From positions 16,430,001 to 16,494,000 of the forward strand of contig OZ020248.1 of assembly GCA_963971285.1 (NCBI GenBank): a stretch of 64,000 nt of DNA, written 5' to 3'. Under the pieces are notes generated by a model that ran no database searches, was not told where the DNA came from, and was given only the letters and a program-made list of their open reading frames with translations. Both the position numbers and the translations under genes were made by a program. Origin of the DNA: Astropecten irregularis. Taxonomy: Eukaryota > Echinodermata > Asteroidea > Paxillosida > Astropectinidae. Within the stretch, counting starts at the first letter, position 1; each line of letters begins with the position of its first letter. This document shows positions 5,038 through 64,000 of this stretch, piece by piece.

Positions 5038-5723
5038 CTGCAATTATAAAGAAGTGTACAACAATGAACCAGTAAAATTGACATTCAGTCAGCAACTTTT
5101 TTCTTCAGAAAGTGCCATTCTTTTGCATGTAATGTATGTGTATGTATCATTTAATCCAATCCTCAAGAAGGAGGGATTACTGTGATATGACCTTAAAAAA
5201 GCTCGTATGTAATTTTTTGCTCACCTCTCTGTGGAGAAGCTTAGTACATGTATGTCTTTGCCTTGTTTACAGACAATTAGGATTAAAAATCGAACAGCAC
5301 AGTAATCCTATAGGGCTACCACAATGATGACAGGAAAGAAAACATAACATGACATGACATGACAAACAGGCGTACAATAGAATGGGAGCCGTAAGCAAAT
5401 ACTGGTAGGCAGAGAATAACCAAACACAAAATGGGAAAAAACCAGAAAGTATAAAAAAATACATACATACAATGTATGTGGGGACAGGCAAAGTAACAAC
5501 ATCTATTTCACTGGAGCTGTCAAGCACAATCTGGACTTTTGTAAAAGTTTTTTTGGGAAAGAGTTCAGAAACCCAATACCACCAAAGATCTTGTGTACAA
5601 AGTGTGTGGGACATGACTGAAAAAGTGACCATGACTGATCATGTTTTTGCTCAGTAACGTTAGGCATGGTAGTACTAGGTTACGCCATGGACCAAGGTAA
5701 GCTCCACAGTCCCTACTCCCCCC
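5038..5723. other. Non-coding DNA upstream of the EnSpm-like frame
   Basis: No recognisable protein. It would contain the promoter or an upstream exon of the minus-strand transposase. Short ATGACATGACATG repeats occur near 5,345. Confidence 0.4.
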
Positions 5724-17751: not shown

Positions 17752-18383
17752 TTAAAGGTAATATTATACTTTGGTTTTTATCAAAGAATACAGATTTATG
17801 GGAAAAAATATCAAGACAGATACAGTAACAGTCATCTGTGTCCAATACGGTGCCCACTTTTTGAAGAAAAAAAAAACAGTGAAAAACAGCTACAGTATTT
17901 CATAATTCTTTTCTCTTTTATTTTTTATCTTTTAAAAGATCAAAAAGATTTTCGATCGTTGTTTTACTAATTTCTGGATAAATACACTATTTTAGACGGA
18001 ACATGTTTAACTGTATGTTTCTTCCAAGTTCCAACACCATTATTATTATTATTAATTTCTAGTAATGACAACAAGGATTCCTCAAAAGCTCGAAAGCCCG
18101 ATGAAACCTATTATGGAAAGATGATGAGAAGAAGGTACAGTTTTAGAGATGGGAGGAAAACCCCACAGTTATATTCTGGGTAAAACCCACGGAATTAGGT
18201 AGGGACTGAGGACCCAATCCACCTGTGGACTGAGCCGGACTTGAACCTGGTCCACAGAGGTGAAAAGCGAGGAAAGAACCGCTACACCAACCAGACTCCC
18301 ATCTTCATACCCTGTAAGTTATAGGTAAATCTGTAAACATTCCTGTTTTGGTGTCTTACCAAAAGTACATGTGCTACCTTTAA
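17752..18383 (+). repeat. TTAA-flanked MITE, copy 1, interrupted by a SINE
   Basis: It starts TTAAAGGTAATATTATACTT and ends in TACCTTTAA. The body matches copies elsewhere (CGGTGCCCACTTTTTGA, CTTTTAAAAGATCAAAAAGA, TTTCTGGATAAATACAC, GTAAATCTGTAAACATT). The consensus is broken between CAACACCAT (about 18,047) and ATCTTCATACCCTG (18,301), where a tRNA-derived SINE sits. The TTAA ends suggest mobilisation by a piggyBac- or Kolobok-type transposase; that is inference. Confidence 0.85.
18142..18300 (-). repeat. tRNA-derived SINE inside a MITE
   Basis: On the minus strand the head reads GGTTGGTGTAGCGGTTC (box A region) and GGTTCAAGTCCGG (box B). It is followed by a body (GGATTGGGTCCTCAGTCCC, CCGTGGGTTTTACCCAGAAT) ending in GGTTTTCCTCCC. 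The left limit is approximate. A decayed relative lies at about 45,290-45,480. Confidence 0.75.
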
Positions 18384-21013: not shown

Positions 21014-21266
21014 TAGTTGCGATGATCGTAACACTAGGTCTGACCAGGGACTGGGACCTTAGGGTTACGACAAAACTTGTTCAAAAAAATGGGTACGACC
21101 TTTTTGGCCAACTCCTGAACTACGTTTCCACTTAGTTTTCCACTTTCCAAAATCCAAACACAAAATCTGACTACATGGATCTGATCGGTACTTATCAATG
21201 AGTCATATAAAACCACTTTGAATATCGAAAGATCATTTTCTGCAGAAAAAATGACCAAAAACTTAC

Positions 21267-21330
21267 CGAAGGTGTCCAGATTCCCTCCGTTTGCCGTCAG
21301 TCGGCCATTTTGAATAGTGCGCAGTGCCAT
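21267..21330 (-). other. Outward ATG exon with splice donor in the left arm
   Basis: The minus strand shows ATGGCACTGCGCACTATTCA followed by an open frame to a consensus donor (CTTCG, GTAAGT) after 64 bases. A TGACGTAA (CRE-like) word lies about 15 bases upstream of the ATG. The right arm carries the mirror copy. Without splicing the frame runs on for 98 codons from this ATG. Whether it is transcribed is unknown. Confidence 0.35.
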
Positions 21331-22702
21331 CTCGACCAAATTACGTCATGCGCAATGCCGTTTTGGCTGTTCCACCTTTCAAACTCAAACTCGCAGCCCT
21401 ATGGAGGGCTCGTATCACGTGCGTTGTACAGTGCTATACACGGCATATCGCATAATATGTGTGAGCGTGTCCGTCTAATAAATCACAGGTGACCAGACCA
21501 GACCCGTGCGCCCGAAACTGCCGAATTAAGTTTTCCTCCGCTCTTCTGATATGACAGGTGAAGAAAAACGTATACGGCGTGATTTGTTTCCGACAACCAA
21601 CACAGGCCGACATCGAACACATGCGAAATCTAAATAAAAATAAAAATATTCTGATCGACCGTCCTTCCAAAGTACCGTAAATCGTCGGCTGATCAGCTTA
21701 TAAATCTTACTTGAATTTCAATTTCAGTATTCAATATTTTGTTCAATTGGCCAAGTAGAAACACTCTTTTCATAATTATACTGAATCTAAATTTTTTTTC
21801 GTGAAATCCTTCCGAAACCGACCGACGATCGCATTAAAAAATTAAGACTCGTACAAACATTGCCCACACTGCAGAGAAAGACAGCCTGGTATCCGCGTGC
21901 GTAATAGCCACAGTTTCAAAGCAAACGTGCACCAGCGAAGGTCTCAAATCAGTACGTTATACACGTGCCGTGTGCTTGAAATGAAGTGTATATTGCGCTC
22001 GGTCGGAAGGCCTACCTTTTTGGATCGCGGCCGGCGTCGCTCCACCGTTACGGTCGGTGGCTCACGGCCGGCCGGCTCGGTACAGATTTCGCCGTGGGCT
22101 TGAAATGTTGCGCTCGGTCGGCACCTTTTTTGGATCGCGGCCGGGTTCGTTACTGTATACGGCTCGGTACAGAACTACAGATTTGCAGTAAGAAATTGTG
22201 GTTTGTCCGCGATCCGCAGTGGAATATTCCGGTGATATTTTTACTAATATGTCCTCACTGTCCTACCGGGTATGATCATTTTTTGTGTAATTGATGACCG
22301 GATATATTTTTCAGTCCAGCGTTAATTCCGACCACTGCGCGATCTGTGATGAGGTGGATGACCTTTTTATTCTGTTTGATCATGGATTGGGTCGGCGCCG
22401 AGTTTGTGACTTGCTAACATTTTGTCTGTTTGCGGGACCATTCGTAAAGGAAATCATTTGAAAATCTTAGCAATTTCCTTCAGTTCATGATGAAAGATTT
22501 GAATTGTCAGCGGCAGCTTGACATGGGCAAACAATGCGGACTTAAAAAAAAACCTCCTCCATACTGTATGTGATATGCGTGTACATGTACATGGTATCAC
22601 AGCGCACGTGTTATTCTGGGAACACCCTCCATAGGGCTGCGAGTTTGAGTTTGAAAGGTGGAACAGCCAAAACGGCATTGCGCATGACGTAATTTGGTCG
22701 AG

Positions 22703-22766
22703 ATGGCACTGCGCACTATTCAAAATGGCCGACTGACGGCAAACGGAGGGAATCTGGACACCTTCG
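22703..22766 (+). other. Outward ATG exon with splice donor in the right arm
   Basis: Mirror image of the left-arm exon: the same CRE-like TGACGTAA, ATGGCACTGCGC and CTTCG, GTAAGT. The two arms differ at only a few positions over about 300 bases, and both keep the frame. Confidence 0.35.
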
Positions 22767-23019
22767 GTAAGTTTTTGGTCATTTTTTCTGCAGAAAATGA
22801 TCTTTCGATATTCAAAGTGGTTTTATATGACTCATTGATAAGTAACGATCAGATCCATGTAGTCAGATTTTGTGTTTGGATTTTGGAAAGTGGAAAACTA
22901 AGTGGAAACGTACTTCAGGAGTTGGCCAAAAAGGTCGTACCCATTTTTTTGAACAAGTTTTGTCGTAACCCTAAGGTCCCAGTCCCTGGTCAGACCTAGG
23001 GTTACGATCATCGCAACTA

Positions 23020-23995: not shown

Positions 23996-24599
23996 GTCTA
24001 AGAATGTGTTTTGAAAAAAGCCACTCATTTTGCAATTTATTAACAAGTTAAAAGCTACAAATTCTGTCTCTTCTGTTGTGTGTTGCTTCTTAAATTGAAT
24101 TCTGTTTATTTTGGTATTGCATTGACCATGTTGACTGCACCTAATAGTTTTAGGAATCATACTGTATTTGCTATTTGTCCATGTTCATTTCTTTCTTTCG
24201 TTCTCCTTTAGTTAAGGTCCATTTAAAAACATCTTTGACTGTGACATCTTAATGTCTGTATCATGTGCCTTAACAGCAGTTTATTATTAATATTACAAGG
24301 CCTACCTGATTTATGTTAATCAATAATTGGAAAACCTGATGTGAATAGCAAAATGACTGACATTGTCACCACCAATGTATTTAGCTATAAAGAGCTTTAT
24401 GTAGTCTGTTTTTGTTTGCATTCTTTGCGGCCATGATCTGAAGATTATCAGGCTATTGATCGCCATTTCAGTTGGTCTTTAACAGACATGACAGAACCCA
24501 ATTAAAACCCAACTTACAAATCCTTACCCCTGCCTGATGGTTTTTAAATTTAATCATCAAATAACCACAAGGGAAACTGACTGAATTTTAAGTCATTGA

Positions 24600-24735
24600 A
24601 ATGTGAACAAAGAAAAATTTACTGGAGCGGGATTTGAACCAGCAACCTCCTGAATACCGTACAAGTGCTGTACCAACTGAGCCATCCCAGCCCTACGTTG
24701 GTGGTGACCCCAATAGTCAATTATCTTTGTCCATT
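24600..24735 (-). repeat. tRNA-derived SINE
   Basis: The minus strand carries GACTATTGGGGTCACCACCA ahead of a tRNA-like unit (GGCTGGGATGGCTCAGTTGG, box B GGTTCAAATCC) and a tail ending TTTCTTTGTTCACATTTC. The same head, body and tail occur on the plus strand at 53,757-53,890, and partial copies at 38.9, 40.3 and 41.3 kb. Confidence 0.8.
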
Positions 24736-25029
24736 TGGCAGTCAGAAGCCATGAAACCATGCACACACCGCCATACCCCAAGGATCATTTCACCGATACT
24801 CGCAGCAATGCTACAACCTGAGAACAGTACATGGGGGATCACATGGGGGCATAATCATCGAAAAACCACTGGGAAACTAACTGTTTTTAAAAATTTATTA
24901 ATGTTGATTCCAACTACAAGACTATGCAATGCAAACATTTATACATCACAGCATGTGAATTTGTTTGAGGCACTACTGTACATGTACATATTGTAAGCCT
25001 ACTGTTTGTAATTTGATTTTCCATCAATT

Positions 25030-25396
25030 ATAGGTAGTATCATACTTTGGTTTTTATCAAAGAAGTACAGATTCATGGGTAAAAATATAAAGGAAGATAC
25101 AGTAACAGTCATCTGTGAAAATTTCAGTTCCATACGGTGCCCACTTTTTGAGAAAACAGTGAAAAACGGCCACAGTATTTCTTATGTCTTTTCTCTTTTA
25201 TTGTTGATCTTTTAAAAGATCAAAAAGATTTCCGGTCGTTTTTTTACTAATTTCTGGATAAATACACCATTTCAGGCAAAAAAATGTTAACAGTAGGTTT
25301 CTACTAGTTAGCATCATCTTCATACCCTGAAAGTTATATACGTAAATCTGTGAACATTTTTGTTTTGGTCTCTTACCAAAGTGATACTACCTTTAA
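25030..25396 (+). repeat. TTAA-type MITE, copy 2
   Basis: Full-length copy: TAGGTAGTATCATACTTTGG at the left and the inverse TACCAAAGTGATACTACC with CTTTAA at the right. The left TTAA has decayed to TTATA. Confidence 0.85.
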
Positions 25397-27886: not shown

Positions 27887-28086
27887 NNNNNNNNNNNNNN
27901 NNNNNNNNNNNNNNNNNNNNNNNNNNNNNNNNNNNNNNNNNNNNNNNNNNNNNNNNNNNNNNNNNNNNNNNNNNNNNNNNNNNNNNNNNNNNNNNNNNNN
28001 NNNNNNNNNNNNNNNNNNNNNNNNNNNNNNNNNNNNNNNNNNNNNNNNNNNNNNNNNNNNNNNNNNNNNNNNNNNNNNNNNNNNNN
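27887..28086. other. Assembly gap (200 N)
   Basis: Exactly 200 Ns, a placeholder length, so the true distance is unknown. Low-complexity A-rich DNA on the right side explains the break. Confidence 0.98.
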
Positions 28087-33400: not shown

Positions 33401-36400
33401 TGGTTGCCTTAAAGGTAGTATCATACTTTGGTAAGAGACCAAAACAGAAATGTCCACATATTTACGTATAACTTACAGGGTATGCAGATGGTGGTGGTGG
33501 AAACATACAGTTAAACTTTTTTCCCCTGAAATGGTGTATTTATCCAGAAATTAGTAAAGCAACGACCAAAAATCTGTTTCATCTTTTAAAAGATCAAAAA
33601 TAAAAGACTAAAGACTAAAGAAATACTGCGGCTGTTTTTCACTGTTTTCTCAAAAAGTGGGCACCGTATGGGCCTGAAATTTTCACAGATGACTGTAACT
33701 GTATCTATCTTGGTATTTTTGCCCATGAATCTGTATTTCTTTGAAAAAAAAAGAAAGTATGATACTACCTTTAAACTTAACCTTAGTTAATGGGTACAAA
33801 TTTTTGATTACTTTTACCATTGATGATAGTTATGAAATATATGATTTTGTTGTTTGTGGTTTTTTTTCTAGTTGAAGGATAAAATTCATAGCTTGATTTT
33901 TTTCTTCGACCAAATAGATATAATTTCATATTAAATTGTCATATAATTAAAAGATTTTGACTTGAGCTTGATTGGAATGTGTGGTAGATTACAACTCATG
34001 TACAGTATAATTCATACTGTTTATGTCCGTGGATTTGTGATCATGAAACAATATGAATTATTGTGTTTTGCCTGTACAGTGTATATAATATTTGAAACAT
34101 TTATTGGTTTTCAGGGTGCCAGTGTAGAGGTATCTAGTGCTTCGACAACACCAGTTATTGCCTCCACAAGAAACAATGTAAGACCAAGCAATGTATTACC
34201 TTTTTAAAGTGCATTACCTGTACATTCCAAGCACGATGCCTCTATAAACCTTTTTTTTTCAATGAACTATTCATGTGTAATTCCATTTACATGTGTATAT
34301 GGCGAACATTACTGCTCCTGCAATGATAAATGCAGCACAACTAATAATTTTCCTTTGGCTTCGATCACATTCTCTTCACGTAATTCTGCTTAATGACATA
34401 AATTACATGTATGTCATACATTGTTCTATTTTCAGGATACAGATGAATCAATACAGAGGATTATAGCCACAATGCAAAGCACCATGTTTGTACCATTATT
34501 ACCCTTATGTTCTTTGATACCAAACACTGTTGATAACTGTAGTTTTGTTTTTATTTACTTATTTGTGCATGATGTTTTCATTTTGCTTGGTATTTGCAGA
34601 AAACCAGGCAATTAACACTAACAATATAAAATGGCTACTGAAGTTTATTGTCTGCTGAACCCAACATAATCAAGGAGCTCCAAGAAAACATCGGTTAGTC
34701 ACTGCTGAGATTGACAAAATGTGACAGATTACAGATTTTTTGCTTTTCGGCATAGTTGCGGAAAAGCCTTTCTTTTTGTTCAGATATTTTTTTTTTGCTT
34801 TTCCGCATAGTTGCGGAAAAGCTATACTGTTTGTTCAGATTTGTTGGCTTTTCCGCATAGTTGTGGAAAAGCTATACTGTTTGTTAAGATTTTTTGGCTT
34901 TTCTGCATAGTTACTGAAAAGCTATACTGTTTGTTCAAATTTTTGTCTTTCTTCTTGGCTTTTCCGCATAGTTGCTGAAAAGCTATACTGTTTGTGCAGA
35001 TTTTTTGGCTTTTCCGCATAGTTGTGGAAAAGCTATACTGTTTGTTAAAATTTTTTGGCTTTTCCGCATAGTTACTGAAAAGCTATACTGTTTGTTCAAA
35101 TTTTTGTCTTTCTTCTTGGCTTTTCCGCATAGTTGCTGAAAAGCTATACTGTTTGTGCAGATTTTTAGCTTTTCCGATTTTAATCGGAAAAGGTATTGTT
35201 TTTTTTGTTCTGATTTTATTTCTTTCTTCTTCTTCTTCTTTTTCTGTTGCAGACAGACATAGAATCTCTAGTTTTGTTGTTGGAGTTTGTGGGGTTTAGC
35301 ATGGTCAGGGTTAAAAGAGATAAAAGTCCAGATAAAAATTCTTACAACATAAGAATTGTTGTCTCTGCAGGGATGTAGATTGTTCTGCCTGTGAGTGTCT
35401 CGCCACATTCCAACTGATGTTCATGAAAGGCAGGAAGCTGGACCCAGTTACAGCCGATGACATGCTGGGAGACACCTACAAAGTCTTCATCTCCAGATCG
35501 TCTGTGATGGATGACCTACTATCAGAAATAGGGAGTCCGGAGTTCAAACCCAACATACCTCTTTGTGTTGAATTCTTTGGAGAGGATGCCAGCGACTTAA
35601 GTGGTCCTAGGCGTGAGCTTCTAAGGATTGCCCTGAAGGAAGTCTTAGACCGAGTGTTTGTCAAGGAGCAAGATGACAGCTATGTGCTATGTGACAACCC
35701 AGCCTTTACCGACAGAGTGAACAGAGCATCAGGAATTGTATTTGGCAAGTTATCTCTTTTAAGTTTTGCTTTTAAGAATATAATGTGGTATGACAACATG
35801 TTTGTTTCCAGTTTTTTTTCCAGACAATTGTTTGTGACTTTGATATTCTCATTCTCTCCTTGCTATCAGAAATTAATAAATGTTGTCCAAGTGGTCCTAA
35901 ATTACCACTTTGGAAACCGACTGGGATCTATAAAATTGTTTTTAAAGTGAAACAAAGAAATTGGCTTGTGTGGGATTTGAACCTGCAACTACCATTACAA
36001 AGTCTGGTGATCTACCAAGTGAAATTTCAAGCCCTGTGTTGGGGTCAGCAATCTTCTCAGTTACATGTATATCAATGTTTCTCCCCAATGTCATATAAAT
36101 TCCCACTAGAAATAAAAACATATGCTGACATTAATAGCACATTAGTTTTAAACGATTAAAGGATAATACTCTTTTTCTTTAGGGAAAACATTTCTCAGTC
36201 TATCCTCATTTTAATCTTTAAACAGAATGCATTAATTTACTCATTTAAAAGGTAAAACAGGATTAATAAAATGAAAAAAATTGTATTGTTCTTCCACCAT
36301 TTTGGAAGAAAACTTTAGAGAGACTGCCACTGAAGAGACACTGATAATAATGTAGAAATTTTATTCATTTTAGGACTCTCCCTGATCCAAGGGGGACCAC

Positions 36401-38575: not shown

Positions 38576-41500
38576 CTGCTCAAAGTTGACATTTCCACCT
38601 GGCCTGACGTCGTAATGTTTGCAGAACACATCGGCCAATAAGATGCTGTCGCTTTCTTCCACGGAGTCCGAGAGCAGACTGCGAATGTCTCCTTCCTCCC
38701 AGACGCAGAATGCGCCTTCCTTTTTGTGCTTAGCATCATGGGAAGGGAATGAATCGGCATCTTCAGCGCTGAAGAAACCACCTGCCTGTGGCATAAGGAC
38801 AAAGGGTTAGCTGGTAAACATGTTGACAATAATACTTATCATTCTAAATATGACCGGTTGCCAGCTAGAATGTCATGTGATCTGTACCAAGTCCAATAAA
38901 ACAATAGGGCTGGATAGCTCAGTTGGTAGAGTGCCTGTATGTTACTATGAGGTTGCAGGTTCGAATCCCGCTCCAGTCAATTTTCTTTAATAAGAATACC
39001 TTACTACTCAGATCCTGGATACGTATTGCAAAATAGAGCGAGCAACGTCTGCAAAGAACTCCTCCTTTGTGATCTGTTTGGGAAAAAAGGAAGAAGAAAC
39101 AGAAATCTTGACTGTTCATTTGAAGGCTGTTCATAAGTTTGGGAATTACACAGACGTTTAAGGCTGGCAAGAGGAGGATTTCAAGCCCGAAGGACTGTGC
39201 CTGGCCAGGCTTTTCAATGTCTAGGCTCAACCATTATAGTTTTATTTCCCTTAAATGGCATGTCCAACATAGGTTAAGGTTGAGCAGAGCAGCTGCAGGC
39301 TGTTCATCATTTGATTTGTCATCCATAAAACAAACCTGTGAAATTTTCAGCTAAATTGAACATTGGAAAACATGCCAAATTGTGCAAGAATAGCTGTCTT
39401 ATTTTTGTTCTTTCCAAGATCAAAAATGTTTTGGTGTTTGGTTTTACATTTTTCAGGATAAATACAGCATTTCAGGCAGAGAGTTGTTCACAGTACGTTT
39501 CTACCACAACCATCTTTATACCCTGTAAAGTCATACGTCAATCTGTAAGCATTTTTGTTTTGGTTTGTTACCATGTTGTACGTGACCTTTAGTAGGGTGT
39601 CCAAACCAGCAAACAGGGAGTCTGAATGAAGTCAAAGTGTTGCTAACCACTAATCTAGGCAGTATGATTTGGGCTGAGACATATGAAGGCTGTATTATCT
39701 TTCCCTGTAAGTACCTGGTAAGCATCAAGGTAAGACACGGCAGCTGACCCTGGTCATACAGCATCTTCTCAAAGTGAGGCACGTGCCAGAACTCATCTGT
39801 AGAGTACCGATGAAAACCCTGTAATCAAAGCAAACACAGGTTTACCAGTCAAAACAGTATGTGATGCATACTGCTCACAACTGGTACTCTGCTTCATTTT
39901 CTATGGATGGGGGAAAGAGTAAAGAAGGAAAACATGTTCCATGGCATATTTCTGAATTTCCTGCAGCCGAAGGATGACTGTATAATTTTTACAGAATGAC
40001 CCAATACATTTCTTTGGCCCAGCTTGAGAAAATCTTCGCCACAGTGAAACCCTGTCTAAACAAAAAGAAGACCAGACATTGCCGAGAGTTCCTATAGAAA
40101 GCACTTGAATAGCGCTCAGCACTTGTGCTAAAAATAGCACCGGATCTCAGACAAACATTGCAACCATGCAAACGTGTGTGCGTGTGCATGTACACTACGT
40201 GTGTGAGTCAATGTTTGTCTGACATCCGGGGATTTTGTGACGTCATTAGTGCGGGACGCTATTCACTGTCCACAAGAAACAGAGGAACAGGGATTATTGA
40301 CTATTTGGTACACCTATGGCTCAGTTGGTGGAGCGCCTGTACGGTGTTCAGGTGGCCAGTTTGAATCCCGCTCCAGTCGATTTGTCTTTGTTCACTTTTC
40401 AATCACAAGAAAATCTTATTTATTTTCAGGCTATTTGCATAAGCTAGGCAGTAAGAGAAAGCCCAAACAGCCCAAGATTTGAATGCTAACTATGAAGTTA
40501 CGATCACTGATGAAAATTATGATGAAACTGCCTGTTCTTAAACCTATTATATCAATCTTGTTCTTATAACCGAATGGACAAGGTGTGGAATCCTGCAAAA
40601 AGAGATTCGTTGCCCATTCCTGCTATCTCTTCCTCCTTTGGAACGTCCTTAGCACCAGCCATAGTCCTGAACTTGGATCCAGCCTAACCTATCCTATGCA
40701 GCCACTCTACTGCCAAGACAAAAGCTACAATTTATGGCTATGGCTTGGTTAGCACATTATCTACATGCATTGAAGAAAAGGCCATGCCTAGTAACGTCAT
40801 TTATGGCTATGGCTTGGTTAGCACATTATCTACATGCATTGAAGAAAAGGCCATGCCTAGTAACGTCATTTATGGCTATGGCTTGGTTAGCACATTATCT
40901 ACACACACTGAAGATAGGCCATGCACAGCAACATCCTTAGCAACAGCCATAGCCATTATAATTGGATCCAGCCTGATGCAGCCACCCTGGTGCTAAGACT
41001 AACCTGTGCTATGTGATCATACATTCCTCCCTTGGCCATGAACCTCAGTGTTTTCAGGCACATATCAAGTCCCTCTTTCCCCGTGCTTGTCTCCGGCCGA
41101 CTGGCGTAATGCCTGAACATGAAGTTGAAGTTGACTACAGGTGAGATACAAAAAAAAAGGGAAACATGACAGATTTTCACCTAACTCTCCTGTCAAATTC
41201 AGACACAGTGGAAAAACAGTTTATTATAAATGGAGTATCACTCTTCTTCCTATGAGATAAAATTCTGGCCTAAAGAAGGGACTCGAAAAATACTATCTCT
41301 GATTGAGTGCCGGTACGGCATTTTGGAGATCGCTGGTTTGAATCCCGCTCAAGTCCTTGTTCACTTTTCATTTATTCATTTTACTTACATTTGTATTAAA
41401 ATGAAGGAGGAACTGGTATTTCAATCCTAGCTGGATCTTCCTCACTAGGATTGAAAAGTCAGGCCCTCCTAGCTACTCTACGCATTTTACGCAATGTATA

Positions 41501-49872: not shown

Positions 49873-49998
49873 GGTTCTGAAAAGAACCGATGAGAAAGGT
49901 CGGCTCCGGCCAGTACTGAGGACTCCTGATGACCGCGCTAGAGTACCCTGGCCGGAACGTCGAGACCTTTCTTATGCGGTTCTTTTCAGAACCACACA
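49873..49998. promoter_or_regulatory. Two opposed histone-type 3' stem-loops
   Basis: At 49,978-49,997 the plus strand reads GGTTCTTTTCAGAACCACAC, a 6-bp stem with a TTTC loop and an ACACA tail. That matches the replication-dependent histone mRNA 3' stem-loop bound by SLBP. Purine-rich AAAAGAGA follows about 10 bases later, where a histone downstream element would be. The minus strand carries the same hairpin at 49,888-49,873 with the ACACATG tail. Between them an inverted pair (AAAGGTC..CCGGCCAG / CTGGCCGG..GACCTTT) makes the whole a palindrome. No histone coding sequence is adjacent. Confidence 0.5.
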
Positions 49999-50081
49999 TA
50001 CATAAAAGAGATTTTTAATGGTTACCGTTCTTCACCATGCAAAGCTTCAAATCATACCAGACTATTCTCGTCTGTGGCCGT

Positions 50082-51440: not shown

Positions 51441-52410
51441 CTCCAAGAAAACCGTGGACCCAACGAGCAGAGGATTGAGCAGCCATTTCTGGCCAAAGTA
51501 AGTTATACAATGTACCTCCATTTAGGCCTATTTACAACTATTATATTGGTTAAGGCTGGAATTTTCTCAGAACTTTAAGGAGATGTTGTTTTAAGTTTGT
51601 CTGGTGGAAGTAGGGACTCCAGTTTACCCATGAACATCACTTGGCTTTACATGCAGTGTGTATAAAAAACGCAACAAGATTTTGTTTCAAATGTGTGAAG
51701 ATTGTGTTAGCTTTAAACTAAAGTGAATAATACATGTAGTCACGCTATCACATATCTCCTCTTTCCAATAATATCTAATTTATCCATAATCTGCATGTCA
51801 TTGGTTGCCGAGTAATCATTCTTTGTGGACAAGGGTAACTTTCCTATATGTAGTAAAGGGGAGTGTTCAGATGCCTATTGTGGGCACGGGATGGCGCACT
51901 CAGCCCATCGAATTAAACTTGCAGTAAGAACCTTGGCTGAAGTATTTGGACATCGAATGATTGCTTGTATCATGATGTGGAGTGGCCATCGCGATCTCCG
52001 GATCTGATTTGTTAAGACTTTTTTCTTTGGGGGTTATCTCAAGAGCGTCTGATCTGCTGTCTGTGAAAATAATGCTTATCTCCGTTACTGTTTTTGCCCC
52101 TACATTTCCGTCAAAAATCAAAGCCCCGCCCTCTGTCCACAATTTTACCGCAACGTTGTTGAGCCACTTCACAATTTGTATTAAAACATTTCCTTTTATA
52201 GGTTTTGAAGCCAATTATCCACAATCACCATAAATACTTCACTTAAATTTTGCTGACTTTGATTATATTGTTTGATTTATTTCAGCCACTTACTGCGCCT
52301 TTGGAAGAGAGCAAGCCCGGAGACCAGAAAATAAAACTCTGTGAATTATCAAAGAGACCAGATTGTTAATACAGCCATCATTGCCAAAATAAATGATACC
52401 TTCGTGAAAA
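51441..52410. other. 5' flank of the zinc-finger gene
   Basis: A possible 5'UTR exon ends at a consensus donor near 51,499 (GGCCAAA, GTAAGT). A good acceptor (TTGATTTATTTCAG) at 52,285 precedes the coding exon. No other gene seen. Confidence 0.4.
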
Positions 52411-53361
52411 ATGGAAAAAGTGGAGGGAAAAGCCAAAGGCAACTCGCACGCTTGTGACTTCTGCGAAAAGACTTTTATGAGTGATAGCCATCTGATACGA
52501 CATAAGATGGTCCACACTGGGGTGAGACCCTACGCCTGCGACTATAGTGGAACAACCTTTTCTCGGAGGGATCTTTTGACAAAGCATCAGCGAGTTTACA
52601 CCGGAGAGAAACCATTAATTGCTTGTGGTACTTGCGGCAAAACTTTTTTTCTAAAAGGTTCCATGATACAGCACGAGAGGATCCACGCAGGAGAGAAATC
52701 ATTTGTCTGTGACATTTGTGGCAAAGCCTTTTACCAAAAGTGTCATCTGACAAGGCATCAGCTGGTCCACACCGGAGAGAAACCATTTGCTTGTGGTACT
52801 TGCGGTAAAGCTTTTAATCGCTATGATCACTGGATGAGACACCAGAGGGTTCATACTGGGGAGAGACCCTACACCTCAGGCAGTCTTTCTTTTTCAAAAC
52901 ATCAGACAGTCCACTCTCGAGCCAAACCATTCTTCAGTGACACTTCGAGTTGCGACAAAGCATTTGCACAAAGAAACATCTTGAGAGTTCCCTCTAGAGC
53001 AAAACCGTTCGTTTGTGACACTTGCAATAAAGTGTTTAAATGTCACGACCACTTGATGACACACCAGAGGGTTCACACTGGGGACAAACCATTCACTTGT
53101 GACATTTGTGACAAAGCCTTTGCCCAGATAAGTAACTTGACAAGGCATCAGAAGACCCACACTGGCGAGAAACCATTCACTTGTGACATTTGTGGGAAAG
53201 CCTTTTCCCAGATGAGTAACTTGAAAAGCCATCGGAAGACCCACACTGGCGAGAAACCATTCATTTGTGGCATTTGTGGCAAAGCCTTTTCCCGGATAAG
53301 TCACTTGACAGGGCATCAGAAGACCGTCCACGCTGGCGAGAACCCATTGACTTCACTGTGA
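52411..53361 (+). CDS. C2H2 zinc-finger protein, decaying
   Basis: From ATG 52,411, 316 codons encode a run of Kruppel-type fingers linked by HTGEKPF spacers, a nuclear DNA-binding array. Fingers 1, 3, 4, 5, 8, 9, 10 and 11 keep C2H2 (for example CDICGKAFSQMSNLKSHRKT). Finger 2 has lost a Cys (CDYS) and its last His. Fingers 6 and 7 are collapsed (SGSLSFSKHQTVH; SSCDKAFAQRNILRVPS), and 11 has an extra residue before the last His. The frame stops at LTSL. Beyond it the finger continues out of frame (TGTGACATTTGTGACAAAGC, then QKSHLTSHLRVHTGEK after a one-base gain), and another partial finger follows to about 53,510. No KRAB, BTB or SET domain is seen. It is either a truncated, fast-evolving gene or a young pseudogene. 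Confidence 0.75.
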   Translation: MEKVEGKAKGNSHACDFCEKTFMSDSHLIRHKMVHTGVRPYACDYSGTTFSRRDLLTKHQRVYTGEKPLIACGTCGKTFFLKGSMIQHERIHAGEKSFVCDICGKAFYQKCHLTRHQLVHTGEKPFACGTCGKAFNRYDHWMRHQRVHTGERPYTSGSLSFSKHQTVHSRAKPFFSDTSSCDKAFAQRNILRVPSRAKPFVCDTCNKVFKCHDHLMTHQRVHTGDKPFTCDICDKAFAQISNLTRHQKTHTGEKPFTCDICGKAFSQMSNLKSHRKTHTGEKPFICGICGKAFSRISHLTGHQKTVHAGENPLTSL

Positions 53362-53515
53362 CATTTGTGACAAAGCATTTGGCACAGAAGAGTCATTTGA
53401 CATCGCATCTGCGGGTCCACACTGGAGAGAAACTACATTGTATTTGCTTGTGACATTTGTGGCAAAGCCTTTGCATGGACAAAAATCCTTGGCCATTCAC
53501 GTCAAGATACACATA
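53362..53515 (+). pseudogene. Frameshifted extra zinc fingers
   Basis: Finger 12 is split between two frames by an added G in GCATTTGGCACAG. A thirteenth (CDICGKAFAWTKILGH in one frame) follows a 10-base insertion after GGAGAGAAA. They show that the ancestral protein was longer. Confidence 0.7.
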
Positions 53516-53756
53516 ATAGAAGTCACATTGTTTTGATGATGATAAAGTAAGAAATATCTTCAGGAACACAATGGCAAATTTTATATTCTGAAGCTTTTCC
53601 GGCCCCACGACCAAAATAAAACCCCATGGCCAGGTCCCTATTCCAAGTTTTCAAAGGGCTCTGTGTTTTGATTGAAATTTTTATTGGCAATTATTTCATA
53701 CGTATTGTACTGTTTATTTATTTATTATTTAATATTATATTCGTGAAATAAGCCAA

Positions 53757-53890
53757 ACGGACAAAGATAGTTGACTATTGGGGTCACCACCAACGTAGGG
53801 CTGGATGGCTCAGTTGGTAGAGCGCCTGTACGGTATTCAGGAGGTCGCCGGTTCGAATCCCGCTCCAGTCATTTTTTCTTTGTTCACTTT
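53757..53890 (+). repeat. tRNA-derived SINE, best-preserved copy
   Basis: GACTATTGGGGTCACCACCA leads into a tRNA-like unit at 53,799-53,870 (box A TGGCTCAGTTGG; box B GGTTCGAATCC). The acceptor halves GGCTGGA and TCCAGTC pair. The tail is TTTTTTCTTTGTTCACTTTT. No CCA and a poor anticodon stem argue against a real tRNA gene. Confidence 0.8.
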
Positions 53891-54099
53891 TCATATCATT
53901 TAATATTAAACTGACTTACTCAATGAAATGTACTGTTTGGTCAGATGTATTGTTTCTCATCAATTCCTGGTTGGGTCATGTAAGACACGTAGTACGTTAC
54001 TACGATGTGAGTTCACTAACTTACATGTAACTCCTGTGTCACATTATGGTATTACAACTTAATTTGATTTCTCCCTTTTTATTGTACTCAGGCAGTGTT

Positions 54100-54418
54100 C
54101 AATAATGTGCATGAAACCTGCGAACATTTGATCTCAGTCGGACCTCTTGAGTCACGAGAAAACAGCGAAAATCTGACTCAACTTATAAAAATAAAGAATG
54201 GTTTCGATCTTACCCCAAGATTAAAACTGTTTTCGGGCTTTGTTTTACTAATTTCTGGATAAATACAGCATTTCAGGTGAAAAATATTTTAATACACTGT
54301 AGTACGTTTCTACCAGAACCATATTCAAACCACGTAAGCTCAACTTACCCGGTATACGTAAATCTGTGAACAATTCTGTTTCTTTTTGGGTATTACACCA
54401 ATCACATGTCCTGTATCT
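54100..54418 (+). repeat. TTAA MITE subfamily copy
   Basis: GAGTCACGAGAAAACAGCGA, TTTACTAATTTCTGGATAAA and CTGTATCTTTAA are in family order. It directly abuts the next copy, sharing the TTAA at 54,419. Confidence 0.7.
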
Positions 54419-54785
54419 TTAAAGGTCGTATCGTACTTTTGTAGCATATACCGAAACAGAATTGTTCACAGTTTTACCTACAACTTACGGTACACGGTAT
54501 AAAGATACTGAATGGTGGGAATATACCGTTAACATTTTTCTGCCTGAAATGCTGCATTTTTCCAGAAAAGAATAAAACCAGTGCCCAAAATTAGTTTTGA
54601 TCTTTTAAAGATAAAAAATGAAAGAGAAAAGACTTAAAAATACTGTGGCCTTTTTTCACTGTTTTCTCAAAAAGTGGGCACCGTATGGGACTGAAACTTT
54701 CACGGATGACCGTTACTGTATCTTTATTTCTGATATCTGTATTTCTTTGACAAAGACCAAATTATGATACATGTATTACCTTTAA
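54419..54785 (-). repeat. TTAA MITE, full-length copy
   Basis: TTAAAGGTCGTATCGTACTT at the left, CAAAGTGGGCACCGTATGGG-like body and TTACCTTTAA at the right. Inverted relative to its left neighbour. Confidence 0.85.
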
Positions 54786-56435
54786 GTACCGGTATTTAGT
54801 TCAGTAGGCTTTGTTTGTACTCAACAGGTGTTTGAAAATGGTCGCTATTAAAATTACTACAGTATACATATGTATCAATTTTATGTCCGTGATGATGACC
54901 CAATTTGTTCACCCTCATCAGGGTTTCTCTGCGTTACGTGTTATTTCCTTGAAATTTGAAACATTTAAACCACACATCACAGGCCCAAAACATTTTAGGC
55001 CTAAATTTAGGCTCGGGATCAGTCTGTCTTCCTGTTATGCTGCACACACTTTGTAAAAGAGAGGGCGCCCCAGAATTGAAATTACTTGTGCTATATCTGC
55101 CCCGGGTATAATGTGGGTATAATGTCATGATCATTCCTTGCAGGGTACAGCATTCAGTATTATGGAGGGTAGCAAGAACACCCTTAAGAAACGATTATGG
55201 TCAATTCAAGTGATAAACTACATGGTGTGTATACTCATGAGCCAAAATGACCTGAAATAATATAAAATCATTGGAGCTAGGAGGGCCTGGCGCGTATCGA
55301 AATACATGTACTGTACATAATGTACTTATGGTTATAGGTCCAAGGTCAAAACGTTTTTGTAGACAACATATTTCTCCATCTCCCTTAATCCTCTAATTAC
55401 CTTCATTGTTAATCACAGTTCACCCAGTCCCATTCTTCTCCACGCCTTTGTTGTTATTCACGAAGTTAATCTTACCCAAGCAGCTAGGCCACCCTCCCTA
55501 CCCCACTTTTTCCGAGATCCTCCTATTATGTGTTATCTATTTATTGCATGTTCTTGTCCTCTTGTCATTTAGCCTTCAATAAAGATCCTGCCCATAGGAT
55601 CACTGATGCGTCAGTCCCCTTACTCCAAGCATATACTTTCATCTTCTTAAATCCTCTGTCTTCATCCCCCTAATAACCCTTTTCATCCATGTTCCCTTAG
55701 CCACATGGCATCTGCATGCCTAGCCTGACCTCTGCTATTGTCCATCTTTCATCTTGCCTATAGAGGAATTTCATATTAGCCGGGTCTGCGCACTTCCGCA
55801 TTGAAAGCGAGGCTCCCAATGCTAAACATTACAACGTGGTCGCACGAGCTATGCACAAACTACAACGTAAGTAGTACCAAAAGTAGCGTAACGTTCAAAA
55901 TATTGGACATTTTCCATTATTTTTTGTATGACACAAAGTATAAGTTGATATAGCAGAGATTTATTATAATTTTCTTCCTAGAGACAGAATTATTTTTGTG
56001 AATTGTATTCTTAAAATACGTCGACGATGCTGTTCAGTTTTGCATGACATAAGATACGCACGGGGAACCCGACGAATACGGGTGCATATAACAGACTGAC
56101 GTTGAGAACCGGACCTAGACTTACTTTATGTATTGTTTTTGTGTGCTTTCATGAAGCTTTGTGTTTGTAACCATACGTCAATAGTTGTCAGTCATGCAAG
56201 TGTTGTTGAAGAGCTGTAGCACTTGGCAGGAGTAACTTCTTTTGTAAATTGTAGTCATGCGCATGTAATAGTACTAAACTGCCTGGTTTTAATTACAACA
56301 TTCCTTTATTGTTGACACGTTTTTGTTACCTCATGATTCCAAGCATACACTTAAAAATCTGGAACCCAAATTAATGTATCATTATGACATGACCAGTGTT
56401 GAGGAAATATGTATTTTATGAAATTTGTATTTTAG
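54786..56435. other. Intergenic DNA with a dispersed-repeat copy
   Basis: 55,265-55,600 is a copy of the AGGATC-ended repeat (CTAGGAGGGCCTGGCGCGTA; CAATAAAGATCCTGCCCATA). The rest up to the acceptor at 56,435 should include the 5' part of the ISL2EU-like unit. Terminal repeats were not resolved. Confidence 0.4.
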
Positions 56436-56803
56436 GCCATGGATGATCTCACAGAGAATGACATCCCTGGAGCAAAATTAGATGTGTCACTGCCTGCCCT
56501 CCAAAAGCTGAAGGTTGCCGAACTGAAATTTTGGCTAAGATGTCGTGGAGATTCCTGTAAAGGCTTGAAAACCAAAGCGCAGGTAATAGAGAGGTATGTG
56601 TATATACATACATGTACATATTGTTTTAATAATAATAATAATAATATGGACATTTATAGTGCGCCTTTTCCACAAAAGTGATCAAAGGCGCATTACAAAA
56701 AAACAAAACACACAAGTAAATCAATGAAAGTTGAACAATAACAAAAAAAGAAAGAAAAAGGAAACAGAAGAAGACAGTACTTAGAAGAAAGTTAGAAAGA
56801 TAG

Positions 56804-56871
56804 TAGTTGCGATGATCGTAACCCTAGGTCTGACCAGGGACTGGGACCTAGGGTTACGATCATCGCAACTA
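56804..56871. mobile_element. 68-bp terminal-only miniature with 9-bp target duplication
   Basis: TAGTTGCGATGATCG ... CGATCATCGCAACTA consists solely of the left terminal 45 or so and the right terminal 23 or so bases of the 21,014-23,019 transposon. GAAAGATAG flanks both sides (56,795-56,803 and 56,872-56,880). It can fold into a 22-bp stem. It lies in the intron of the YqaJ pseudogene. Confidence 0.9.
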
Positions 56872-56881
56872 GAAAGATAGG

Positions 56882-57431
56882 TCACCATGCCAGTGTTTTA
56901 CTATGGCATAGGAATAATCCTAATCTAAGTACAGTATTAAAAAACTATTTGGTGATGTATACCCTGTTATGCACGTATATACATACATGCTCGACTTAAT
57001 TCTCTCGGTCGAACATCCTGGCTTTTTTGTGACCTAAGGTCACTGAACAATGCTTGACCATGGCTTGACAATGTGGCTGGAGTGAAAACAAACACATGTA
57101 ACACAAGGCGCTGGAGTATGTGTGCTTACATTATGCTTACACAGGAAGTGACGTATTGCCGACCAACAGAATACCTGTGCATTGCAATGGGTGCTTGCAG
57201 TAGCAGGGAAGAATCATTAAAAATGAAAATACCATTGTATTTTAGCCCTATTTTTGGATCACCTTAGGGGGTTGGGATATTATGCACCTTGACAATAATT
57301 TTATAATAAAAAAAAAAGAAGAAATTATCACAGAGTCTTACGGAACAATAAAACTATCCAAATTCTTTGTTTAATGAATTATCCTTCTTTGTCTAAGATA
57401 AACATTAATGAATTTTACCTTTTCTTTTCAG
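56882..57431. other. Intron of the YqaJ pseudogene
   Basis: AT-rich, ending in the acceptor TTACCTTTTCTTTTCAG. No additional exon is recognised. Confidence 0.5.
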
Positions 57432-59221
57432 AATCCAACACACAGTGCGAATTGGAAATGATTGTAAAATCATCGATCCAACACCGGATAAACGTTGGGA
57501 GAACCTCAAGCTACAAAATCAAGCTAGTGGAAGTAAAACGACCCAATCTACAACTGGAGACAGTTCAGAGCCAAAGCCACACATTGGATTGTACCACCAG
57601 TGGGGAAGTTCTAATTGCTGGGGAAAGATACTAGATGACCTCCCTGCCATTACACGTCGGGGGATAGATCTGCACTTGGACCAAACAAACATGGCATTAA
57701 GGCCACAGAAGGAATCAACACGGGTGTCCAAACCAGCAATACGTGGTGCTCACTTCAACGCTGAGAGGTACCTTAGTTCAGACAACATTTTCACCCGTTC
57801 AGATGAACACTTCTTTTACTGTAGGGCAATATGCTTAGCAAGTAAGAAACACTGTGAACGGAAGTTAAGTTGGCCATCAGATTGTGTGATTCTAAAATTA
57901 AATATGCTCACTGTGACTGTCCAGCAGGTTGTGGGGGTGTTTGCAATCATATGTACGCATTGCTTATAGAGTTGGCTAAATATCATCTCCATAATGTAAA
58001 GGTTGTACCAGGCGAGGTGGCTTGCACATCTAAACTAAGCCAGTGGTGGTGCCGTCATCTAAAGGAAGAATTGAAAAGCAACCTGTTATGGATGTATCAG
58101 TCAAGCGCCTAAAGGTTGATGGGCTAACCACAGGTCGTGGAATTGAATCCACATTATATGATGCCAGAGTGCCTCAGTGTAGAGTGAATGATAATGACAG
58201 GTTGAAAACATTTCAGAATTCTCTCAGAGACATTTCACCTGGAATTCCATTTTCCTATCTTGTTCAAGAAGAAGATCAACACACAGTTTACAAAAGAACC
58301 AAATTTGGTCCTGCTCCACTAGGATCATCAGTTAGCTATCAATGCTCCATTTTTGAATCCCATTTTAAAGTCCACTGCAATTTGCCACAAATAATGCATA
58401 GCTCTTGGACACAACAGGTGGATTTGAGTGTGTACCCACCGTTCCCTGTGCCTATCTATTATGTGAATTATGTTCCTGCTTCAGAGCTAGAAACAAAATT
58501 TTAGTCCTTTATGCAAGAAATTGATGTAGCCCAAGTAGAACTTAACACAAGAGAGCAAAGTTCATGTCCCGATTGGTTCAAGTTTAGAAATTTTAGATTC
58601 ACAGCTTCCAAGTTTCATGGAATTTTTATTCGTAAGAAGTTGGACATTGAATTTGCCAAAACGTTTTTACCATGTCAGGAAAAACCTGTGTCTGATTTTC
58701 TGAAAAGGAAATTCAAGCATGGCAATGATTTTGAACCAGTTGCCGCCAACAAGTATTCACTTTACATGAATGGGTCCGGCCATGCTGTGCGTTTGGAGAA
58801 GTGTGGTCTTGTTATTAATCCAAATGCAGTTTGGTTGGGTGCATCACCAGACCGGAAAGTTGTTGACTATTTATCAGAAAGTCCTTTTGGAATTGTTGAA
58901 ATTAAATGCCCTGAAAAGCATAAAGATGAGGACCCACTTGCAGCATGTAACGATCCAAATTTTTGCTGCAAACTTGAAAATGGTATGGCCACACTAAAAA
59001 AAGATCAATCCTACTACACTCAAGTGCAGGGTCAGCTTGCAATAACTGGAGCAGAATGGTGCGACTTTGTTGTATACACTCACAAAGGCCTCATAATTCA
59101 AAGGATACCTTTTGACCCAACGTTTTGGAACATCCTGTATAACAAATTGTTCAAATTTTATTTTGACTTGTACATCAAAGTAGCTTCTGCAGCCTTCCAG
59201 TCTGTTGCCTTGCAAATTTAA

Positions 59222-59898
59222 ACATCCAAAACACAGAACACAATATGACTATTCATGTACAGTATATACACATTCATTTATGTATTTATTTATGTATTTA
59301 TTTTGCTAATGTTAATCTCTATCTGGGCTTATTCAGTGAGGGTTAACATTTTGAATAGAAAAGAATGTCAGGTACATTAGCAGTGCGAAAAAAAACCCTC
59401 AAACTACCTGCCTTGGTAAAATGTATCTATTTGTTCTACTTTGTTTTGTAAAATGATTAACAAACAAAAATAAACATTCATATTTCTAGCCACATGATTA
59501 TTCCTTGTTTTCAGACACAAACAATTTATACAAATTTCATAGATTAAGATTTGAACAACTTCCAAGTAATATCACCCCTTAAAAAACATGTTTTTAGGTT
59601 GTAACACAAATGGGTAGATTTATACGAAACATGTTCCATTTATATCAACCTAATTACAGTAGAATTAACATGATTTTCGTTTTGATTTATGTTGTTATCA
59701 CCCCATATAAAGTTGAAGCTCTGAAATGTTCTCTTTTTTTTTCACCATAATACACTGTACATGTAAACAATTTGTTTGACCCTGGCAATTATTGTTAATA
59801 AAGTGATGATTCAAATTAACATTTGAAATCGATTATACATTCTTGAGCGGAAAATGTTTCATTTCTGACAACTTGACAAGAACATTTTGTTGATCAAA
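59222..59898. other. Spacer between the two convergent ISL2EU genes
   Basis: AT-rich shared 3' region. It holds AATAAA on the plus strand (near 59,470) that could end the YqaJ transcript. No gene. Confidence 0.5.
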
Positions 59899-61476
59899 TT
59901 ATTGCTTGGAAATGACAGGATTGAAACTATTTGTCAATAAACAGCAAACTGTCCAAATCTGATTGATGGATCCATGCATAGTGAGGGGAATAGGACTATC
60001 GAAAATACGAAATTTCTTGACTTTGTTAATTGCCCTCTCTACATGGATTCTCTCTGCTGCAATTTGCTGTGTTTCAATGGTTTCTGCTGGTTCAAATTGC
60101 TTTCGCCCTTTAAGGAAAGCAGGGATATTTAACTTCACATTCATTGGCTTCAGTAGGTCCTCAACTGTAAAGCCACGGTCAGCCATTACAACATCATCTT
60201 TATCAAACAACTTTGGTTCAAGAAAATCACTTCTGATGACTATTTCCCTGTCTGACATGGATCCAGGATAAAGTTGACTTATGAATGTAATTGCACCACT
60301 TGGAGCAATACCCAGGAGGCCTTTGTATGTGATATGATGCTTGTAATTAGACCAGAACATGCTCTGAAGTCTCAGAGAATCAGGGATCTGTGCAAAAATC
60401 TCTGAACAATCGATAATGACCTTGGTATTTGGATACTTATCTTTGAATGTCTGCGGCATTGTTTGCATAACAATATCTTTACTAGGCCAAATGGGTAGTG
60501 ATCCAAGCTTAAAATACATGAAGTTAATCCATGTGATGAAGTATCTACTTACAGTTGATTCGGAAATGTCAAAAAGGTATCCTAAATGTTTCACAGAAAA
60601 TCCCTGTCTAAGTTTGCATAGTACTAAGATGAATTGTTCCTTGGCCGGTATGTTGACCGTTCTCCCAGGTTTATATACTGTTTTACTAGAAGCTGAATAG
60701 CTATGGTCCATGTCTGAGGCGAATGCTGGTGCAGGTCGATATGTAAAATGAGGCTCATAGTCAGAGCTTGTATTCCCAGAATGAGCCATAACATTCTCAC
60801 AATTGTCACCTGGGTTGAGAAAAATGAGCACAGCAAGAAGAAGAGAAAAACTAGGAAATCCTGTGTAATGCTTAGTTAAAGAATCATCTGATTCCAAAGT
60901 TTTAGTGAACTTTTTTTGGTGAACCTTTTCATTAAGTAAGTATATCTCAGTTTTCAATATCTCAACTGTGTTTTTCAGTTCGGTGACTTCCTCTACGTGC
61001 AAGAGTTCTTGCGGTTCACCAATCGGAACATCTTCTTGCTCACGTTCAATGTCCATATTTGATGCAGCGTCATCCATTGTTGGCTCTCCAGGTGTGGTGT
61101 GTGAAGTTGAAGGACCTTCCAAATTTTCCAGTGGTTGTACCCTCCTCTGAAGAACCCTTCGTTTCTTGGGGGATGTACTGTCGGAAAGTACATCTCTTGG
61201 TTCAGAACCAGGTTTAAGTCTCCATATCCAATTCAAACTCCTTTTGATGTCTGTGTCTTTAAAATGTAGGTTGCAAATTTGTGTGGACTTTGTGACCAAG
61301 AATCCATCACGACCTTGAATCCTTTTGATTCTCGTGCACCATTTGTCTCTCCGTGTTGGATCAGATGGAAATGAGAAAAAATGAAACTCAGACCTTGACA
61401 AGTCCTTGTTGTAAAAGCGACTGTTGCATCCATATGCTGCACATTCTACTCCTCTGGAAGTACCGATAGGTGGCAT
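59899..61476 (-). CDS. THAP-domain DDE transposase (ISL2EU/Harbinger-like)
   Basis: An intact frame of 525 codons from ATG 61,476. Residues 12-95 form a THAP zinc finger: C12, C17, then C68 and H71, with W46 and the LKPGSEP box. It binds the element ends in the nucleus. About 160-187 is a coiled coil (VEEVTELKNTVEILKTEIYL). About 275-315 is a helix-turn-helix (LRQGFSVKHLGYLFDISEST). The catalytic DDE_4 domain has D356 (VIIDCSEIF), D433 (VVMADRGFTVEDLL) and E480 (ERIHVERAINKVKKF). All metal ligands are present. It ends NSFNPVISKQ. Its partner, the YqaJ gene, is broken, so this protein could still act alone, in trans or be domesticated. Strong similarity to PIF/Harbinger-type DDE domains is expected. 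Confidence 0.9.
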   Translation of the reverse strand: MPPIGTSRGVECAAYGCNSRFYNKDLSRSEFHFFSFPSDPTRRDKWCTRIKRIQGRDGFLVTKSTQICNLHFKDTDIKRSLNWIWRLKPGSEPRDVLSDSTSPKKRRVLQRRVQPLENLEGPSTSHTTPGEPTMDDAASNMDIEREQEDVPIGEPQELLHVEEVTELKNTVEILKTEIYLLNEKVHQKKFTKTLESDDSLTKHYTGFPSFSLLLAVLIFLNPGDNCENVMAHSGNTSSDYEPHFTYRPAPAFASDMDHSYSASSKTVYKPGRTVNIPAKEQFILVLCKLRQGFSVKHLGYLFDISESTVSRYFITWINFMYFKLGSLPIWPSKDIVMQTMPQTFKDKYPNTKVIIDCSEIFAQIPDSLRLQSMFWSNYKHHITYKGLLGIAPSGAITFISQLYPGSMSDREIVIRSDFLEPKLFDKDDVVMADRGFTVEDLLKPMNVKLNIPAFLKGRKQFEPAETIETQQIAAERIHVERAINKVKKFRIFDSPIPLTMHGSINQIWTVCCLLTNSFNPVISKQ

Positions 61477-64000
61477 GGTGCATCAAAATCAAACTTCAAA
61501 GCATCTGAAAAGTCAAAATAATCAAATATTTGGTAAGAACTTTTGCTGTAGCTCCATGACCAAGTATACACCCTATATTCTCACTGTAGAGAGTATAGTT
61601 GTTGAGCGCAATTTTGACGCCTGCGCAAGTTTCAAACTGGGCCGTGCGCATTTTTGAATTTAACATTCATTTGGGATTTTTTTTTTTACTGCGGCACGTA
61701 GCTACCTTCACTTCAGTTAGGCCTAGGTTAAAAACGGTGGACACAGCCTCACAGGTTTTCTTTAAAAACAAGTCACTTCGGACAAACGGTTAAAGATTAC
61801 ACAGGTTGAAAGATTGCGCTCAACATACACATCATCAGTTTAGCCTATTTTTACCTAATTCACACGGCAAGGCAACACACCCTATATTATATTATTTTTT
61901 ATAACACTTGAATTATTGTGGTTTGTTGTATTTTCTACCAGAAAGGGTAGAAATTCTTGAATTCGAAGCAGGGCAGTTCTGAAGTCAAGTGGTATACAAA
62001 GGATCGGGAACTCCTGTCTCACCCGCTGTATCGTATGCTTTTAACACATAAGTTATGTCGTGGGGGGTCCCGTTATCAATGTGCCAAGTTTCCGCGGGCT
62101 TACCTTCTGCGTTACGCGGCGCGATGTAAACAACTTCGGATGACGTCAAAAAAGTTTGTGAGTGATGATACTGACCCCAAAATATGGAAAGTTAAGGCTT
62201 TACTAGTAAGTTTTATTCGTAAATATCAAATTTTGAGGTACTTTAGACCTTATTTAACTAGATACAAAAGTGTCCATACTTGCGAGAGTCAAAAATAAAC
62301 AATGTACTTTCATTCATAGTTTTGGGTTACAATGTTTCAAATTGCCATTCGTTCATATTGATGTCACGTGACTTTATTAGCAACCGTGCATGCTGAGTAA
62401 ACTACTACGGAAGTCTGTAAAGGACACATTCCTTATATAATTTTTCCCACTACTTATAAAATCTTTATTTCCTCTAATATTGAGGGTTATGAAAAAATAT
62501 TGCAAGGGTCTAGTTTCTTACTTTAAAATAATAAAATTTGCATGCAGAATTTTTCTAATGATACTTACGAATTGTTAGAAGAGGTTTTGGGTCTAGTTTT
62601 GTGAATTTTTTTTTATGAGACACACATGTAATTAGTCAATTAACAGGTGCGTTTCCACTAACAGGCAGGAGGTACACAGAGAGTGACTCCCCTCAGGCAA
62701 CAGAAGTTTGTAATGTTGAGAAAGGCAATCACAGAAGATAGAGGTCACCCAGAACAAATCCCACAATATGAGAATGGCAAGAAAACTTTTACATAAAAAG
62801 AGAAAACACCCGAAGCAAAACCCAAAGAGTCTCCCTCAACATCCCAGTCTCAATCTAGGCCTGGTCCAATTAACATGTCCTATGCTGCATCTCAACACAA
62901 CTTCTAGAAACAGTCAAACAAATACTAAGTTTCATAGTTTTAGTTTTTTTTAATAATTTATGCCGATGCAAAAATTACAAAAGAATTCTTTTAATATAAA
63001 GCATCCAACAATTTATCACAGAAATAAAAAAAAAAAAAAAAGAGAGGTCAGAATATAAAAAACCTGAATGAATGTGGAATGAATAAAATGAGTGTTTAAA
63101 ACATTGAAACGACCACGAGTGTGTTTTTATTTTAATTTTTTTTTAATTTGAAAACAATGATAATTTTTAACTTTAAAAGAACTGATAATTTGATATGACC
63201 AAATTTTACATTCAGGATAAGGTGAAGTTACTAAAGACACACGAAGTGACAGCAAATATTTATTTTTCACACATGGCTTTACGGGAGCACCGTACTACCA
63301 ACGCAATCCTCGGAAACAGGACACAGTCTTCCGCGTAGACGCGTTGTGAGTTGACATCAGAAATCACACCGTTGCACAAAAGTAGTTAACATCGGGAAGA
63401 ATTTAATGTTGTTGGCATACTTCCTGGTACCTATGGAAGGTAATTAGGACATTAGATGACATCTTGCATTTGGCATTTTTTTCTAAATCAAGGAAGAAGC
63501 CTTATACCCTCGGAAACCGGTAACTGGAGGATACTACTACTAACACGTTAGTTACATGAAGTTTACCTACCGTACAACTTGAACTTCAATCATAACAATG
63601 ACTGTAAATTCACTCTAAATATACATTTAACTATTGCACAAAATAACGATTTTTTCTCACTCACCAATATGCTTTGAATATGTTCCTTACGTGGCTCTGC
63701 CAGCAACTGTAAAATCCCGTGAAATCATGAAAAATCCTGTAAAATCAGCTAAAGAGACGGCCGTCGACGTGTATAATGTATCTATCTCAATGTGTTTCGC
63801 GCTAGCGCTTAGCACAGAGTGCCTCGTTTTCAAACCCGGTACGGTGTGGCGGTCTCAGCTGACTCCCCGTCTCAGCTGTCTCCCTTACTAAATATAGTAC
63901 CAATACGTCATGCTATCTCTGCGCACAACAACGGTGAAGTCGTCCGTTTCAGTGGCGTACTGAGCTGTGGTTGAGCTGTGCATTCCATGCTTCACAACAT
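61477..64000. other. Terminal flank, no confident gene
   Basis: Upstream region of the THAP transposase, then AT-rich DNA. A possible exon begins after TTTCCACTAACAGGCAG at 62,667 (GTQRVTPLRQQKFVMLRKAI in one frame, ending KTFT and a stop), but no family is known. The 61,957-62,298 frame is basic and unrecognised. CACGTGAC (E-box-like) lies at about 62,363. Confidence 0.35.

Follow-up and report, generated by a model that had tools for sequence, protein, structure and literature searches.

A probable two-gene ISL2EU-type transposon copy with an intact THAP-DDE transposase frame and a YqaJ nuclease gene carrying three lesions

An intact transposase reading frame and a broken nuclease gene lie tail to tail in Astropecten irregularis DNA, within the 64,000-nucleotide stretch analysed here (the window). 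The arrangement poses the question of what kind of element the two genes make up, and whether damage that is confined to one of them reveals an order of decay. A preliminary description had named a two-gene ISL2EU-like transposon whose nuclease was freshly broken and had been lost first. The observation is sound and concerns an element of known kind, but the order of decay was over-read.

Gene content of the locus

The features of the locus, with the evidence for each, are as follows.

56439-56593, forward strand: nuclease exon 1, SAP-like (open reading frame; Pfam SAP, 0.0013, under the curated cut-off)
56594-57431, forward strand: likely nuclease intron, phase 2, 838 bp (splice signals; predicted from sequence)
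56804-56871, no strand assigned: palindromic insertion of 68 bp in the nuclease intron, with the direct repeat GAAAGATAG (9 bp) to either side
57432-57861, forward strand: first readable piece of nuclease exon 2, to about the first frame change (frame open to 57966; codon model)
57858-58109, forward strand: frame of the piece with a SWIM-type motif, with frame changes at both edges (open frame and motif; no Pfam match)
58034-58501, forward strand: third readable piece of the nuclease gene (open frame; codon model)
58502-58504, forward strand: in-frame TAG (frame reading of nuclease exon 2)
58505-59221, forward strand: YqaJ nuclease domain and stop codon (Pfam YqaJ, 8.7e-16; PDB 3syy, 1.9e-8; 48 phage records by tblastn)
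59899-61476, reverse strand: intact transposase open reading frame, THAP-HTH-DDE, 525 aa (list of open reading frames, Pfam, motifs, solved THAP domains)

No break was seen in the transposase reading frame (59899-61476). Pfam matches comprised THAP (2.4e-11, residues 12-93), HTH_Tnp_4 (1.1e-17, residues 277-324) and DDE_Tnp_4 at full length (1.4e-43, residues 355-516, profile positions 1-158 of 158). The C2CH pattern of the THAP part is complete (C12, C17, C68, H71), and solved structures of human-type THAP domains gave matches to this part as well, the best being 2d8r (1.6e-5). The motifs containing D356, D433 and E480 are all kept, and by motif we take these residues to be the catalytic triad. 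The Pfam matches, the C2CH pattern and these motifs thus agree with the earlier account of an intact transposase with all its domains over 525 codons.

The nuclease gene (56439-59221, forward strand) converges on the transposase gene, and the two stop codons are 677 bp apart. The SAP match in exon 1 scored 18.8 bits against a Pfam cut-off of 23.9 and is therefore sub-threshold; a codon model that had the transposase as its sole training sequence favoured no frame for this exon. Exon 1 is probably joined to exon 2 by splicing of the intron at 56594-57431, whose donor GT agrees with the consensus at 7 of 9 positions (4.3% of GTs in the window score at least as high) and whose acceptor AG has 11 pyrimidines in 12 positions (0.7% of AGs in the window). 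The preliminary gene model lacked this likely intron. Exon 2 starts at 57432 and runs to a stop codon at 59219-59221. Its distal part contains the YqaJ domain (PF09588, 8.7e-16), with the whole profile covered within 58511-59218 on the forward strand. The match to PDB 3syy, a phage exonuclease (1.9e-8), includes GASPD, EIKCP and a QxQxxxxxTGxxWCDFV region common to both proteins. The SWIM part consists of a motif only, CDCPAGCGGVCNH; no Pfam match was returned for this piece at E values up to 10, and the pattern CxCx(4-25)CxH occurs six times in the six frames of the window, the present motif included. The piece at 58034-58501 also had no Pfam match. Thus, of the nuclease motifs that had all been described as retained, YqaJ is present as a full profile, whereas SAP falls below its cut-off and SWIM is a motif only. 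AlphaFold models made without an alignment had low mean pLDDT values for the transposase and nuclease proteins (34.5 and 32.0, respectively).

Relationship to ISL2EU and related elements

Autonomous ISL2EU candidates mostly have two open reading frames, one encoding DDE, HTH and THAP domains and the other a YqaJ exonuclease, average ~4840 bp in length and are confined to animals according to the available portion of Han et al. (2015; PMC4482050). The same two-frame layout is given in the part of PMC9179366 that was available. The THAP-DDE and YqaJ genes described here reproduce this layout, and the open reading frames and Pfam domains agree with the tail-to-tail unit of ISL2EU type that had been proposed. 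Thus, the locus is probably a further copy, in a state of decay, of an element type already known: a two-gene cut-and-paste DNA transposon of the ISL2EU group (PHIS superfamily) in an animal genome, the assignment being made by coding content. A similar size of ~5 kb is plausible, the 5038 bp measured here being a coding span and the ~4840 bp an average for whole elements. The copy differs from ISL2EU in that its nuclease gene is broken three times; termini and an AT target duplication were not recognised here. The accessible ISL2EU description of PMC4482050 makes no mention of SAP-like or SWIM-type parts.

Three other systems resemble the locus in part. Phylogeny of the DDE domain places Spy as the sister group to ISL2EU (PMC11304231, as far as available), but Spy has a transposase frame only and no target duplication in the available text of PMC4482050, whereas a YqaJ gene remnant is present at this locus. 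PIF/Harbinger elements likewise have two genes and a related DDE transposase, but their partner gene has a Myb/SANT domain; Pfam found no Myb/SANT match in any piece of the nuclease gene. The phage YqaJ/LHK-type exonucleases (PDB 3syy and the 48 phage records) share the nuclease domain and its motifs; however, identity was ~25-27% among the 12 listed of the 48 records, and no transposase was found there. Eight stretches of prokaryotic genome contigs matched the transposase pattern, none of them a relative, and no relatives were found in viral contigs or phages, as expected for an animal element. With the YqaJ part, two relatives were found among five pattern matches in viral contigs, and on our own reading of their open reading frames the two loci resemble sets of phage recombination genes.

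Within the 64-kb window there was no second copy of the transposase (best other tblastn match, E 0.041) or of the nuclease, whose four exon 2 pieces matched only themselves at E values up to 1. In ISL2EU, the target duplication is AT within A/AT/T, and the terminal inverted repeats measure 6-259 bp and usually begin with GG; the element ends were sought with these features in view. The flanks compared were 53500-56440 with 61477-64000 and 52000-56440 with 61476-64000, and no pair of inverted repeats flanked by an AT duplication exceeded shuffled sequence. In the first comparison, 18 pairs flanked by AT matched at 11 or more of 16 positions, but GG starts were absent among them. The second comparison gave 68 GG/CC pairs from 17 left and 4 right sites; the best of these, 53573/62346, shared five bases, a value equalled in 178 of 200 shuffled controls with slightly different bounds (16 left and 4 right sites). 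The longest pair of candidate ends, 54956/62340, with 10 bases and flanks AAT and ATT, was equalled in 28 of 200 shuffled controls and was therefore not accepted as termini.

The window holds further repeats. The intronic insertion at 56804-56871 is a palindrome with perfect arms of 27 bp and a 14-bp loop, and its first ~57 bases match the tips of an element of ~2 kb at 21014-23019 at 96.6 and 98.2%. The latter carries inverted ends of 395 bp, 99.2% alike, with TAGTTGCG as their first bases; no target duplication was visible in the flanking bases inspected. Together with the 9-bp repeat around 56804-56871, this element is reminiscent of Mutator-like foldback elements. A dispersed family was detected by blastn at 24584-24739, 38905-38988, 40316-40406 and 53752-53914. 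As tRNA matches (24620-24691, 38908-38979 and 53799-53871) overlap three of these four sites, the family looks like a tRNA-derived SINE. Another repeat family of ~270-370 bp, 72-87% alike and in both orientations, occupies 17752-18022, 25028-25396, 33409-33774 and 54419-54785. An open frame of 912 codons on the reverse strand (2305-5043), whose only Pfam matches are weak zinc-finger ones, looks by eye like another transposon-type protein. A match to the histone 3′ UTR stem-loop at 49973-50017 on the forward strand (34 bits) equals the Rfam cut-off exactly, and an assembly gap of 200 N lies at 27887-28086.

Lesions in the nuclease gene

The interval set by stop codons is 57858-57966 for the first frame change in the nuclease gene and 58034-58109 for the second, and both are net changes of -1 (one base lost or two gained). 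With the TAG at 58502 there are three lesions, and the positions 57,863, 58,042 and 58,502 given in the preliminary description fit the two intervals and the TAG. Its count of two frameshifts and one nonsense codon also holds. The codon model assigned the expected frames to 57418-57807 and to the sequence that begins at 58037, but called 57808-58036, the SWIM motif included, non-coding. As the middle piece was missed, the frame changes rest mainly on the open frames and motifs. Runs of at least four identical bases were absent at the two frameshift positions previously proposed, and AAAA is found in each possible window. Programmed -1 frameshifting was set aside by eye, as no slippery heptamer was seen at either site.

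Order of decay and alternative explanations

By analogy with the superfamily, the THAP-DDE transposase of a whole element would bind the element ends, excise the element and reinsert it where the DNA is rich in AT, and the SAP-SWIM-YqaJ protein would be a DNA-binding exonuclease partner that may process ends or help repair. For the present copy we infer ordinary decay, in which the three lesions would have inactivated the nuclease gene after insertion while the transposase frame would so far have been spared through chance or short age. Such a copy would need a partner in trans, if a partner is needed at all. The 68-bp insertion nested in the intron is in keeping with a copy that arrived some while ago, although it could also stem from a parent copy. 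The coding lengths are 1942 nt for the nuclease and 1575 nt for the transposase, so three random lesions would all fall in the nuclease with a probability of 0.168 (~17%). The asymmetry is thus compatible with chance, and one copy can neither be dated nor give an order of loss; the claims of a freshly broken nuclease and of a nuclease lost first are therefore unsupported. Nor does the copy serve, as had been suggested, as a test of the transposase without its partner, because a single copy cannot show that the transposase still works and the partner could come in trans from elsewhere in the family.

That the transposase still mobilises an element whose nuclease was lost first, alone or with a partner in trans, is distinctly unlikely. 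The transposase domains are complete, Spy as the sister clade (PMC11304231) has one transposase frame only (PMC4482050), and native Spy transposases are reported to be active, in so far as these sources were available. Nevertheless, the lesion asymmetry is not significant, there is no sign of movement after loss of the nuclease, and the related Harbinger group requires both genes in vitro (PMC9179366, available part). It is very unlikely that the copy represents an ISL2EU lineage without the nuclease, mobile through the THAP-DDE transposase alone, as a step towards the single-gene state of Spy. Host co-option of the transposase, with decay of the nuclease alongside, would fit an intact frame that adjoins a broken partner and has no recognised termini, but the locus gives no sign of selection or conservation. 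The remnant of the nuclease can still be recognised clearly, which means a short time since its loss, and the DDE motifs are intact, whereas takeover does not require them; we regard this reading as highly improbable.

Sequencing or assembly errors in a complete, autonomous element are unlikely, though they deserve the most weight among these alternatives to ordinary decay. All three lesions are within 650 bp and could belong to one bad stretch, and the AAAA run in both frameshift windows points the same way. However, one lesion is a substitution-type stop codon, and other long frames in the window are unbroken (912 aa at 2305-5043 and the 525-aa transposase), albeit these were noticed for their length. 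Splicing that bypasses the lesions and leaves a functional nuclease gene is extremely unlikely. Although 167 single GT-AG introns would leave the frame open from exon 2 to the stop codon, the acceptors of the eight best-scoring have at most 9 pyrimidines in 12 positions compared to 11 for intron 1. Moreover, any such intron must excise the TAG at 58502, so the whole piece 58034-58501 would be lost too.

The accessible part of PMC4482050 describes what the YqaJ partner does in ISL2EU movement as unknown, and the authors of a 2022 paper knew of no proof of ISL2EU activity (PMC9179366, available part). The single-gene Spy elements mean that the question of a transposase without a YqaJ partner has been partly addressed in print, at least in the portions available. 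No report of a broken YqaJ gene beside an intact ISL2EU transposase was found in the accessible portions of the ISL2EU literature searched. A single decaying copy is common and does not settle the role of YqaJ, for which a family of copies that combine an intact transposase with a broken nuclease would be valuable.
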